42,819 bases of DNA from Lachnospiraceae bacterium (lineage in GTDB: Bacteria > Bacillota > Clostridia > Lachnospirales > Lachnospiraceae), in NCBI GenBank assembly GCA_017544835.1, contig JAFYDI010000041.1, forward strand, positions 1 through 42,819, read 5' to 3'. Position 1 is the stretch's first letter. Every line of letters starts with the position of its first letter. Below, in pieces: positions 8,743 through 37,809 of this stretch. The notes beneath the pieces are model-generated. The model was given only the letters and a program-made list of their open reading frames with translations, was not told where the DNA came from and searched no databases. The translations under genes and the position numbers were made by a program.

Positions 8743-8795
8743 GACGAAATACATATGACAGATCCCTAATCTTCTTCCCAATGCTGCCTATGATA

Positions 8796-8866
8796 TCTCG
8801 ATAGTCCGGTTATTTACGGTATCCGGGTAGAAACTTCAAAACCATATCTTTTGATATATATCGAAA
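8796..8866 (-). ncRNA. Guanine-sensing purine riboswitch aptamer
   Basis: The minus strand folds as a purine aptamer. P1 is TTTCGATA with TATCGAGA, P2 is CAAAA with TTTTG, L2 is GATATGG, J2/3 is AAGTTTCTACC, and P3 is CCGG with CCGG around a loop containing CCGTAAAT. The base that pairs with the ligand (position 74 of xpt numbering, complement of 8804) is C, which selects guanine or hypoxanthine over adenine. L2 and L3 keep the kissing-loop sequences. It controls the nupNOPQ operon, most likely by termination. Confidence 0.95.
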
Positions 8867-8886
8867 TTAATTATCTTTACGTTCCT

Positions 8887-34781: not shown

Positions 34782-35972
34782 ATGAGCAATCAAAACGGAC
34801 GCTTCGGCATACACGGCGGACAATACATCCCCGAAACCCTTATGAATGCCGTTATCGAGCTTGAAGAAGCTTACAATAAATACAAAAACGACCCGGAATT
34901 CAATCGTGAATTGAAAGAGCTTTTGAACGAATACGCAGGTCGTCCTTCCCGCCTGTATTATGCGGAGAAAATGACCAAGGACCTCGGAGGTGCCAGGATT
35001 TACCTTAAGCGCGAGGATTTAAACCATACAGGTTCTCACAAGATTAACAACGTCCTCGGTCAGGCACTTTTAGCCAAGAAAATGGGTAAGACCCGCCTCA
35101 TCGCCGAGACCGGTGCCGGCCAGCACGGTGTTGCAACCGCTACTGCCGCAGCTCTTATGAATATGGAATGCGTTGTTTTTATGGGCGAAGAAGACACCAT
35201 CCGTCAGGCTTTAAACGTATACCGTATGAGACTTTTGGGTGCTACCGTAGTGCCTGTTAAATCCGGCACGGCTACCCTTAAGGATGCCGTATCCGAGGCC
35301 ATGCGCGAATGGACCTCAAGAATCGACGACACCCACTACTGCCTCGGTTCCGTAATGGGTCCCCATCCCTTCCCCACTATCGTGCGCGACTTCCAGTCCG
35401 TTATATCCAAAGAAATCAAAGAGCAGATTCTTGAAAAAGAAGGCCGTCTTCCCGATGCGGTGCTTGCCTGCGTAGGCGGCGGCTCCAACGCAATCGGAAC
35501 CTTCTACAATTTCATAGAGGACAAAGGTGTCCGCCTCATTGGCTGTGAGGCTGCGGGACGCGGAATCGATACTTTCGAAACCGCTGCCACAATCGCTACA
35601 GGTCGCCTTGGTATCTTCCATGGTATGAAGTCTTACTTTTGCCAGGACAAATACGGCCAGATAGCTCCCGTATACTCAATTTCAGCAGGTCTTGACTATC
35701 CCGGAATCGGTCCCGAGCATGCGCATCTTCACGATATCGGTCGTGCCGAATACGTTCCCGTTACCGACGAAGAAGCGGTTTGTGCTTTTGAATATCTTTC
35801 AAGAACCGAGGGTATCATCCCTGCCATCGAATCCGCTCATGCGGTTGCACACGCCATCAAGCTTGCGCCTACCATGAGCAAAGATCAGATTATCGTAATT
35901 ACCATCTCCGGCCGCGGCGACAAAGACTGTGCCGCCATCGCCCGTTACAGAGGGGAGGACCTTCATGACTAG
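34782..35972 (+). CDS. trpB: Tryptophan synthase beta subunit
   Basis: The 396-residue PLP enzyme joins indole to serine. The PLP lysine is in [14 protein letters not shown] near 84, followed by [14 protein letters not shown] near 109-122 (catalytic Glu), [10 protein letters not shown] near 229 and [14 protein letters not shown] near 301. It is of the TrpB1 type that works with TrpA. It starts two bases after trpF and overlaps trpA by eight bases. Confidence 0.96.
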
Positions 35973-36732
35973 AATTGCAGATGCTTTTAACAATAATAAG
36001 GCTTTCATCGCCTTCATAACCTGCGGCGACCCGGACCTTGAGACCACCGGTGCGGCTGTACGCGAAGCGGTTCGTAACGGCGCCGATTTAATCGAGCTCG
36101 GTATTCCTTTCTCGGACCCCACCGCAGAAGGCCCCGTCATTCAGGGTGCCAATCTTCGTGCGCTCACAGGCGGTGTAACCACCGACAAGATTTTTGATTT
36201 TGTCCGCGACCTCCGCAAGGACGTTTCGGTGCCCCTGGTATTTATGACCTACGCCAACGTAGTCTTCTCCTACGGAACCGAGCAGTTTATCAAAACCTGC
36301 AGCGAAATCGGCATCGACGGAATCATCCTTCCCGATGTTCCATTCGAGGAAAAAGAAGACTTCGCTCCCACCTGTCGCAAATATGGTGTAGCCTTCATCT
36401 CCCTCATCGCTCCCACCTCAGGCGAGCGTATAGCCATGATAGCCCGGGAGGCCGAAGGATTTATCTATGTCGTATCCAGCCTCGGCGTAACAGGCACCAG
36501 AAGCGAAATAAAGACCGATTTAAAATCCATCGTTGATGTTATCCGCGGTGTCACCGATGTTCCTTGTGCCATCGGCTTCGGAATCTCCACTCCCGAGCAG
36601 GCTGCCAAGATGTCTTCTTTGTCCGACGGCGCCATCGTAGGCTCCGCCATCATCAAATATCTTGAAAAGTACGGAACAGAGGCGCCTAAATATATCGGCG
36701 AGTATGTAAAGTCCATGAAAGATGCTATGTAA
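35965..36732 (+). CDS. trpA: Tryptophan synthase alpha subunit
   Basis: The 255-residue TIM-barrel enzyme cleaves indole-3-glycerol phosphate and passes indole to TrpB. The catalytic Glu is E44 in [17 protein letters not shown]; the second acidic residue, Asp60 of the Salmonella enzyme, is Glu (E55) here. Other motifs are [14 protein letters not shown] near 123, [13 protein letters not shown] near 170 and [12 protein letters not shown] near 207. I choose ATG 35965, with GGGAGGA eight bases ahead; a longer frame inside trpB has no site. It is the last gene of the operon. Confidence 0.95.
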
Positions 36733-36746
36733 CCCTCCTTTAAGTT

Positions 36747-36780
36747 GCCGGCGCCTCCAAGCGCCGGCTTTTTCTTTTCT
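36747..36780 (+). terminator. Terminator of the trp operon
   Basis: An 8-bp GC stem (GCCGGCGC with GCGCCGGC, 6-base loop) followed by a 12-base T-rich run. It lies 14 bases after the trpA stop. Confidence 0.93.
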
Positions 36781-36801
36781 ATCCCTGCTTTATCCGTCCG
36801 T

Positions 36802-37030
36802 TTATCGCAATAGCAATAACAAGCCTATTCTGCGATAAATATCCTTCGAATTTGGGCCATAATTTGCCCTTTTTATCGCAATACTGGATTTGTTTCAAAT
36901 TGCGATAAGAATTTAGTGTTTTTTTATCGCAATTCTTCATTTTTTCGATATTGCGATAGATGAACATAAAATGGGTTCTGAAATCACCTTTCTTTATCGC
37001 AGTTAAGGCTCTTTTCTCGTATTGCGATAA
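36802..37030. repeat. Mirror-symmetric array of eight TTATCGCAAT / ATTGCGATAA motifs
   Basis: Eight copies of one 10-base motif alternate in orientation. Forward copies (TTATCGCAAT) start at 36802, 36873, 36924 and 36994 (the last ends CAGT). Reverse copies (ATTGCGATAA) start at 36829 (TCTGCGATAA), 36899, 36950 (ends ATAG) and 37021. The start-to-start steps are 27, 44, 26, 25, 26, 44 and 27, which read the same from both ends. Each forward/reverse pair could form a 10-bp hairpin with a 16-17-base loop whose sequence differs each time. The stretch lies between the trp terminator and the XRE gene and has no convincing gene. The loops and linkers are T-rich. Function unknown: protein-binding array, tandem hairpins, or a mobile palindromic repeat. 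Confidence 0.9.
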
Positions 37031-37107
37031 CCAATCCTCTACCATCCGTTGAATCAACCCGCCGAATAGTTTGTTCTTATTTCTATCCGCAGCCCTTACA
37101 CTTACGC

Positions 37108-37113: not shown

Positions 37114-37134
37114 ATGATAGAAAGGAATTTAGAA

Positions 37135-37809
37135 ATGGACTTAGGAAACAATCTTAAAACACTCCGCAAAAGCAAGAATCTTACACAAGAAGAACTGGCT
37201 GAATGCCTGAACCTTTCTCCTCAGACAATCAGTAAGTGGGAGAACAATCTTTCAATGCCCGACATCTCCATGTTGCCAATTCTTGCAGACTACTTCGGAA
37301 TCTCGGTTGACAGTCTTCTGTCTTATAATGTCAAAGAACGTGAAGCCGACAAGAAAGAATTGGCTCAAAGGATTCACGCTCTAGTCAATGGTGGCAATAC
37401 GGAACTTGCCTACAATGAGCTAAACAATTCCATGTGTAAATGGTCTCTTTCTGCCTCAATGAATCATCTGATGGCATGGGTTGCTTACACGCTCTCCAAG
37501 GACAAAGAAACCGAAGCTCGTCAATCTCTTCTTGAAGAAGCCATCATGTATGCCGATCGCAGTATCAGCCTTGACGGCGGAGAAACTTCAAAAACAGCGC
37601 AAGCAAAAATGACTAAATGCTTCTGCCTCGTTGACTTAGACCGAAAGGCAGAGGCAGTTAAGATAGCTAATCTATTACCTTCCATGTACACCTCAAGAGA
37701 GCGGGTACTGGCCAAGATAACCGAAGGTTCCGAGCAAAAGAAAAATATAGATACAATGCTTCAATTTATTGAAGAGCTCAAAGATGAAATGAATACACTC
37801 TTAAAATAG
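37135..37809 (+). CDS. XRE-family transcriptional regulator with helical C-terminal domain
   Basis: The 224-residue protein has an N-terminal HTH (about 4-58: LRKSKNLTQEELAECLNLSPQTISKWENNLSMPDISMLPILADYFGI, in parts), which is typical of stand-alone XRE regulators in Clostridia. About 70-220 are helices with a tetratricopeptide-like character (AYNELNNSM, SLLEEAIMYADRSISLD, EAVKIANLLPSMY). I place the start at ATG 37135, with AAAGGA eight bases ahead, because the ATG at 37114 would overlap the predicted transcript start. It stands alone, with its own terminator. The symmetric repeat array just upstream is a candidate binding site, but nothing shows that directly. Confidence 0.85.
   Translation: MDLGNNLKTLRKSKNLTQEELAECLNLSPQTISKWENNLSMPDISMLPILADYFGISVDSLLSYNVKEREADKKELAQRIHALVNGGNTELAYNELNNSMCKWSLSASMNHLMAWVAYTLSKDKETEARQSLLEEAIMYADRSISLDGGETSKTAQAKMTKCFCLVDLDRKAEAVKIANLLPSMYTSRERVLAKITEGSEQKKNIDTMLQFIEELKDEMNTLLK

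Follow-up and report, generated by a model that had tools for sequence, protein, structure and literature searches.

Dyad-symmetric intergenic arrays with conserved half-sites and spacing in a genus of Lachnospiraceae

One genus of Lachnospiraceae carries a dispersed family of intergenic elements that is constrained and apparently undescribed. The family is present in 6 of 18 genomes of the genus, and one copy is an element of about 230 bp at 36802..37030 of the window (the whole stretch of 42,819 nucleotides that we analyzed). Across species, the half-sites and the lengths of the spacers are kept while the sequences of the spacers drift. We give about an even chance to the idea that these genus-limited, intergenic elements are assembly sites for a dyad-symmetric protein complex. 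We call the family undescribed because we found no account of such an element in the titles and abstract openings of open-licence papers, and because the only match at the Rfam gathering score, in a search of the window, lies away from the array. (This match is a purine riboswitch aptamer at 8782-8883 on the minus strand, with 77 bits vs. a gathering score of 37.) An earlier sequence-only reading of the window had likewise known of no element with this motif and spacing.

The array in the window and its relatives

The element comprises eight 10-bp half-sites, which start at 36802 (-), 36829 (+), 36873 (-), 36899 (+), 36924 (-), 36950 (+), 36994 (-), and 37021 (+). The steps between them (27, 44, 26, 25, 26, 44, and 27) form a palindromic series around a dyad center near 36916. 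These positions, alternating orientations, and steps are just as the sequence-only reading gave them. It had also taken the eight motifs to be identical, but only 5 of the 8 are exact copies of ATTGCGATAA. Two have one mismatch (36950, ATTGCGATAG, and 36994, ACTGCGATAA on the minus strand) and one has two mismatches (36829, TCTGCGATAA).

The half-sites form four units, which is the architecture of the 43 copies that we parsed (see below). Unit 1 (outer left, 36802..36838) has an outward half-site at 36802-36811 (TTATCGCAAT) and an inward half-site at 36829-36838. In unit 2 (inner left, 36873..36908), the outward half-site is at 36873-36882 and the inward one is at 36899-36908. The dyad lies in a central spacer of 15 bp (36909..36923), where the gap from half-site to half-site is 25. 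On the other side, unit 3 (inner right, 36924..36959) has its inward half-site at 36924-36933 and its outward half-site at 36950-36959, while unit 4 (outer right, 36994..37030) has an inward half-site at 36994-37003 (TTATCGCAGT) and an outward half-site at 37021-37030. The outer spacers, at 36839..36872 on the left and 36960..36993 on the right, are 34 bp each; across the family, the length of this spacer is mostly kept and its sequence drifts. The right outer spacer begins with ATGAACATAAAA, which is a degenerate form of a motif, GGTTTACATAAC, that is found here in other copies.

We searched for relatives with covariance models. The first model, which described the two central units, found many further copies with other half-sites. 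We then counted distinct places at E ≤ 0.01 with a second model. This gave 12 places in the window's own genome (G000; G and L numbers are our labels for genomes and for the loci that we examined), 13 and one weak match in the Lachnospiraceae MAG RGIG7866 (G200), 12 in Lachnospiraceae bacterium YSD2013 (G212), 12 in G210 (two of these are near contig ends and might be one region), 3 in G215, and 2 and one weak match in G216. In other words, four genomes have 12-13 copies each and two more have 2-3. These counts include orthologs, so not all of the copies are independent, and the models that find most copies include the central gap, so copies with another center would be under-found. The assemblies of G000, G200, and G212 are drafts, with 121, 30, and 50 contigs. 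Copies or pieces of a Y1 (IS200-like) transposase lie at the ends of seven contigs of G212 (C9, C17, C20, C24, C39, C47, and C51), so this insertion sequence probably gives rise to breaks in the assembly.

At the same threshold (E ≤ 0.01), the covariance model found nothing in the remaining 12 genomes of this genus; among these, G205 alone is at least 90% complete. In a search of 299 genomes that represent 298 genera of the family, the only matches were in the two genomes from the genus itself, and the element was not detected in the 297 genomes of other genera. That search had limited sensitivity: it applied strict filters, scored 14 candidates in each genome, and recovered 8 of the 12 places in G000 and missed the window's. 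A simpler pattern for pairs of half-sites matched 37 of 200 genomes of the family, with more than two matches only in G000; the reversed control also matched widely. Three stretches of viral contigs each had a single pair of half-sites, and none had an array. Single pairs also matched in Bacteroidota, Thauera, and others. In four Bacteroidota records (L105, L110, L118, and L125, from Bacteroidales, Muribaculaceae, Bacteroides, and Paramuribaculum), TTATCGCAAT-N19-ATTGCGATAA occurs twice, about 1.55-1.95 kb apart. This is probably a different repeat.

The half-site of the window is not the usual one. The commonest half-site across the family, and also in G000, is TTATCCCAAT. Arrays of the exact half-site number one in G000, nine in G200, and one in G212, and G216 has one array with the GTATCGCAAT variant. 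We had considered the window's array to be unique in G000, and rejected this when the covariance model found further copies: the class with this exact half-site is merely rare there. The sequence-only reading had proposed a search of related genomes, on the reasoning that motif pairs at random positions with no conserved spacing would be a dispersed repeat whose symmetry here is chance. Instead, the element occurs genome-wide with a conserved spacing; an adjacent XRE gene is not conserved.

Constraint on spacing and half-sites

We were able to parse 43 of 45 candidate places (L213 and L215 were dropped): 13 in G200, 12 in G212, 10 in G000, 4 in G210, and 2 each in G215 and G216. Of these copies, 41 have a central gap of 25, one has 26, and another has 35. 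The outer gaps are 44 (41 times), 45 (41), 43 (3), or 34 (3), and the steps within units are 26 (109), 27 (60), or 28 (5). There are two units on each side in 32 of the 43 copies, and the distances from unit to unit are 51-52, 61, or 69-72. G200 also has shortened remnants, with only two units at L206 and just one at a place where G212 and G000 have four. The rarer gaps are off by about 10 bp, or one helical turn (34 vs. 44, and 35 vs. 25). Our parser sought outer units only near the expected distances. Scans that were free of any assumption about spacing gave the same peaks, for 11 arrays with up to two mismatches and for 37 elements with up to one mismatch. In the 37 elements, the R-to-L distances between neighbors were 25 (32 times), 26, 35, and 43 (once each), 44 (25), and 45 (33), as well as 113 and 123 where sites were missed; the L-to-R distances were 26 (87), 27 (38), 28 (2), and 78 (1). 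Gaps of 34 appear only in the scan of 11 arrays, because the neighboring half-site has two mismatches.

Comparison of flanking sequences identified thirteen orthologous places (one of these, L192/L150, is backed by one side only). In ten orthologous pairs of the same class, 771 of 800 half-site positions are identical (96%), as compared to 419 of 590 spacer positions (71%), 394 of 464 in the loops, and 108 of 135 in the centers; we excluded from these counts any blocks that differ in length between the two copies (11 of 40 loops, 3 of 20 spacers, and 1 of 10 centers). The length of the spacer changed in just 3 of 20 cases. That half-sites and distances are kept amid drift points to a function that is read from geometry.

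The half-sites mostly agree within a copy, but outward and inward kinds differ, and this difference is mirrored across the dyad. In 12 elements, outward half-sites tend to TATTGCGATAA and inward half-sites to A[AT]YTGCGATAA, on both sides. In G210 and G215, outward half-sites are TGGGCCAATA or TGCTCCGTATA and inward half-sites are TACTCCCAAT or TACTCCGAAT. The exceptions are L187, which mixes the CGC and CCC classes, and L236, which has mixed outward classes. A single genome can have several classes: there are at least four in G210 and three in G000.

Many copies have another motif, [GA]TTATGT[ACT]AAC or its complement, beside the outward half-sites. There are 45 instances in the 11.7 kb of elements, as against 10 in 350 kb of flanking sequence, which makes the motif about 130 times denser in the elements (the flanks are 30-fold longer, and the counts include orthologs). 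Most of these motifs (43/45) are 3-5 bp outside an outward half-site, with 33 at exactly 3 bp; the other two are at 14 bp. By this pattern, 32 of the 43 parsed copies have the motif and 11 do not; the window's copy has a degenerate form that does not fit the pattern. The motif (GTTATGTAAACC) is the XerD arm, TTATGTNAA, of the dif site of Bacillus subtilis. (We take the right arm of dif to be the XerD side.) A lone XerD-arm-like motif, with a hairpin-like sequence after it, is also conserved about 2.7 kb from the element at one orthologous place in three species (L185 at 1150, L197 at 1164, and L205 at 1230).

The elements are also rich in runs of A or T. In 38 elements, there are 311 runs of at least 4, as compared to a mean of 164 if loops and spacers are shuffled. 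The runs are phased at 10.25 bp (R = 0.594), and none of 300 controls was as high (the control maximum was 0.180). A second peak, near 11.75 bp, is a little higher (R = 0.612). Periods of 8 and 12 likewise surpass every control, and the flanks have R = 0.28-0.30 at 10.25 bp. Among controls for just the three class-3 copies, 22 of 300 were as high. The phasing is consistent with curved DNA, but does not prove it.

Assembly site or something else?

The 10-mers of a unit are complementary, and the sequence-only reading had offered four tandem RNA hairpins as one explanation. More broadly, the element might act as a folded RNA or a folded single strand of DNA, forming either four hairpins or a single long, irregular one that is centered on the dyad. 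RNAalifold chooses the dyad fold, and two-sided changes that preserve dyad pairs are frequent: 34 cells covary in set A2 (25 sequences) and 28 in A3 (the divergent set, with 16 sequences, two of them from G000), and 0 of 500 column shuffles reach these counts (which is not a probability). Local hairpins exceed the column shuffles as well, with 21 and 13 covarying cells. However, dyad pairing fits 94.8% of cells in A2 and 87.5% in A3, vs. 91.0% and just 70.9% for local hairpins. What weakens dyad covariation as a sign of pairing is that half-sites in tandem, which are unable to pair, match just as well. In 47 copies, matching across the dyad was 315/329 (L2-R3) and 308/329 (L1-R4), which is above all of 2,000 draws in which the partner came from another copy in the same genome. 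Matching in tandem was 314/329 (L1-L2) and 313/329 (R3-R4), with 0 of 2,000 draws as high for each, and for inward tandem pairs it was 292/329 and 291/329 (5 and 0 of 2,000 draws). The 12 most divergent copies gave 77/84 for L1-L2, 76/84 for R3-R4, 77/84 for L2-R3, and 74/84 for L1-R4 (4, 43, 5, and 13 of 2,000 draws were as high), vs. 64-66/84 for local pairs. Thus, matching follows the type of position. Recognition by a protein, or homogenization between units, is the simpler explanation, as pairing alone would not produce this pattern, and the equal matching in tandem and across the dyad favors a DNA-protein assembly site over RNA hairpins. Also, private changes in a close trio of copies look mostly uncompensated (judged by eye and uncounted), three copies are asymmetric, with a spacing of 34 bp to one side and 44-45 to the other, 11 of 25 places have a terminator-like hairpin no more than about 75 bp away on one or both sides, and the window's array matches no Rfam family at the gathering score. 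Overall, we think that a folded strand is improbable.

We take more seriously, while still considering it unlikely, that the family is a non-autonomous mobile element (MITE- or REPIN-like) whose half-sites are recognized by a transposase that is encoded elsewhere. The classes would then correspond to different transposases, and the spacing would be kept since only correctly spaced copies move. As in MITEs, the outermost half-sites are terminal inverted repeats and the similarity between copies ends there. The flanks are unrelated, except for the orthologous window and L154 and for L150 and L151, which have a flanking gene in common. (Each of these last two copies, from G200, lies about 30 bp after a 256-aa gene, at 3474-4244 of L150 or 3542-4312 of L151. 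The two genes are paralogous, with about 77% identical DNA, and have no match in Pfam; the L150 gene also has none in NCBIfam.) L152 and L156 share 86% identity, and their flanks are unrelated. Presence also varies between close species: the window's place is occupied in G200 and not in G212, and L199 of G212 is empty in G200. At four orthologous places, G200 has the CGC class and G212 has the CCC class (as does G000 at two of them); whole copies seem to have been replaced there, as the loops are poorly conserved. On the other hand, four genomes keep 12-13 copies, many at orthologous places, and the contrast between half-sites and spacers is unlike that of a passive relic. The one pair of occupied and empty sites (L199 in G212, 342 bp, vs. 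L232 in G200, 39 bp) has no clean target duplication, judged by eye. Pfam finds no transposase among 10 proteins that neighbor nine copies (two of these proteins matched nothing), and we saw no recurrent type of gene among the neighbors examined. Finally, the Y1 transposase family (PF01797, which includes RAYT), the one family searched for in whole genomes, is absent from three carriers of the element (G000, G210, and G215).

Regulation of an adjacent gene is very unlikely. In the window, the array begins 70 bp after the stop codon of trpA (35929..36732, plus strand; TIGR00262, E = 1.3e-82 for 35965-36729), and a terminator scan found an intrinsic-terminator-like hairpin with a T run between them, at about 36747-36779. 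On the right, and outside the element, an XRE-type HTH regulator (37114..37809, plus strand; PF01381, E = 1.3e-16) starts 84 bp after the array, and the sequence-only reading had named this regulator as the first candidate partner. Comparison with relatives does not support this. The closest relatives in the genus, by identity of TrpA, are G200 (96%) and G212 (93%). G200 has a six-unit array at this place with no XRE gene beside it, and similarity resumes 831 bp to the right, past the XRE gene. In G212, trpA is followed by a short terminator-like stretch and then by the end of a convergent aconitase-family gene (the copies in the window and in G200 match PF00330); the array and the XRE gene are both absent. 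Conversely, across 60 genomes (including its own), the XRE protein has a single close ortholog. This is in G210, with 64% identity, and its gene lacks an array just upstream. Using tblastn, 48 of 53 element loci have no relative of the XRE protein at E ≤ 0.001, and the other five have weak matches at the level of the HTH. Two of the five share an orthologous place and lie about 1 kb from the element (L196 5087-5290 and L204 2993-2790; 49% over 68 aa), two are at another, about 110 bp away (L208 654-833 and L210 3815-3630; 31-33% over 60-62 aa), and the last, in L161, is over 1 kb away. These could be chance: XRE-type genes are common, with 15 matches in G000. Nor do the neighbors point to some other local switch. 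Using crude ORF calls at 25 places, the neighboring genes are co-directional at 15, convergent at 4, divergent at 2, and undetermined at 4. As for chance or a by-product of protein coding, we give this virtually no credence. A 92-aa minus-strand ORF (36779-37057) does cover the window's array, and short ORFs cross L149 and L158; once such ORFs are set aside, the copies sit between predicted genes. As the sequence-only reading had pointed out, the half-sites are in different reading frames (spacings of 26, 27, 44, and 25 shift the frame), and with frames that shift along it, the 92-aa ORF is probably not a gene. The window has 11 matches to the half-site at up to one mismatch, with 7 inside the 229-bp array, while 100 dinucleotide shuffles of the window gave a mean of 4.0 (standard deviation 1.8, largest 9). 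The exact 10-mer occurs 18 times in G000, with 5 of these in the window's array. Above all, the arrangement is not chance, and the coding explanation is refuted too, because the spacing code recurs at many other places.

We return to the assembly-site explanation, which agrees with the nucleoprotein structure of the sequence-only reading; we infer binding from the matching of tandem half-sites. Each unit of about 36-38 bp would offer one outward-facing and one inward-facing half-site. Usually two, and at most four, units would lie head-to-tail on each side of the central dyad, with the two sides inverted. The distances between units, near 51, 61, and 71 bp, correspond to about 5, 6, and 7 turns of the helix. 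Bound units would thus be aligned on one face of the DNA, which they could bend or bridge. The XerD-arm-like motif beside the outward half-sites suggests the involvement of XerD or of a related protein, which makes XerD a testable candidate for the bound protein, and it also suggests a possible role in chromosome organization rather than in control of neighboring genes. Some observations weigh against the assembly-site explanation: it is not obvious that one protein with a specific sequence preference would accept the several half-site classes of a genome, dyad covariation would also be expected from a folded strand, with local hairpins exceeding the column shuffles too, and a good XerD-arm motif is missing from some copies, including the window's. 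A bolder proposal, which we consider quite improbable, is a new class of chromosome architecture. About a dozen dyad-symmetric, helically phased sites of about 230 bp per genome would be bound by XerD, on half-dif arms, and by a second DNA-binding protein of variable specificity; together these would bridge DNA or would stop or unload SMC, and the specificity of the half-sites would drift copy by copy via concerted evolution. If the link to XerD is true, it would tie dif-type recombination arms to chromosome organization in Clostridia of the rumen and gut. Dozens of natural variants, along with class switches at orthologous sites, remnants, and an empty site, allow a search for the minimal working unit and for the protein that binds it.

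Comparison with known systems

The sequence-only reading had also suggested a BIME-like repeat. In a loose sense this is right, as REP, BIME, and REPIN sequences are dispersed, extragenic, and of alternating orientation. REPINs are described as inverted doublets of two matching REPs, in which the length of the spacer matters (PMC3116915, PMC3733652, PMC2817692, as far as the excerpts available to us go). In stricter terms, the likeness breaks down. Those repeats have over 100 copies per genome, vs. about 12 for this family, which has a fixed four-unit dyad architecture. REP tags are rare within 6 bp of the 348 half-sites in 43 copies (GTAG 8, CTAC 9, CGTC 1, and GACG 4, or 22 at most), and there is no conserved position for a GTAG or CGTC tag in 12 elements. 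We also rejected a link to RAYT: besides the carriers that lack PF01797, it is present in the element-free G204. (The other matches are in G216 and, as 160-aa frames that are IS200-like by length, in G200 and G212.)

The second likeness is to dif/XerCD and to XDS (SMC-unloading sites to which XerD binds), which resemble half of dif. The side motif of the family equals the XerD arm of dif in B. subtilis, but these arms accompany an unrelated array of half-sites. No complete dif-like site (with a XerC arm and a 6-bp core) was found in the loci searched with one strict pattern, which a diverged arm could escape. As printed in PMC3025954, B. subtilis dif is ACTTCCTAGAATATATATTATGTAAACT, with TTATGTAAAC in its right arm, and the right arm of Escherichia coli dif is TTATGTTAAAT; the side motif varies at the base where these two differ. 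According to passages in two papers, XerD unloads SMC in the terminus region when it occupies its sites (PMC12322038, PMC10945525, both citing Karaboja 2021).

The modest number of short, dyad-symmetric sites per genome is reminiscent of sites of the matS and parS type. Those are single short palindromes, with one sequence per species, whereas each member of this family is an array of about 230 bp, and several classes of half-sites share a genome.
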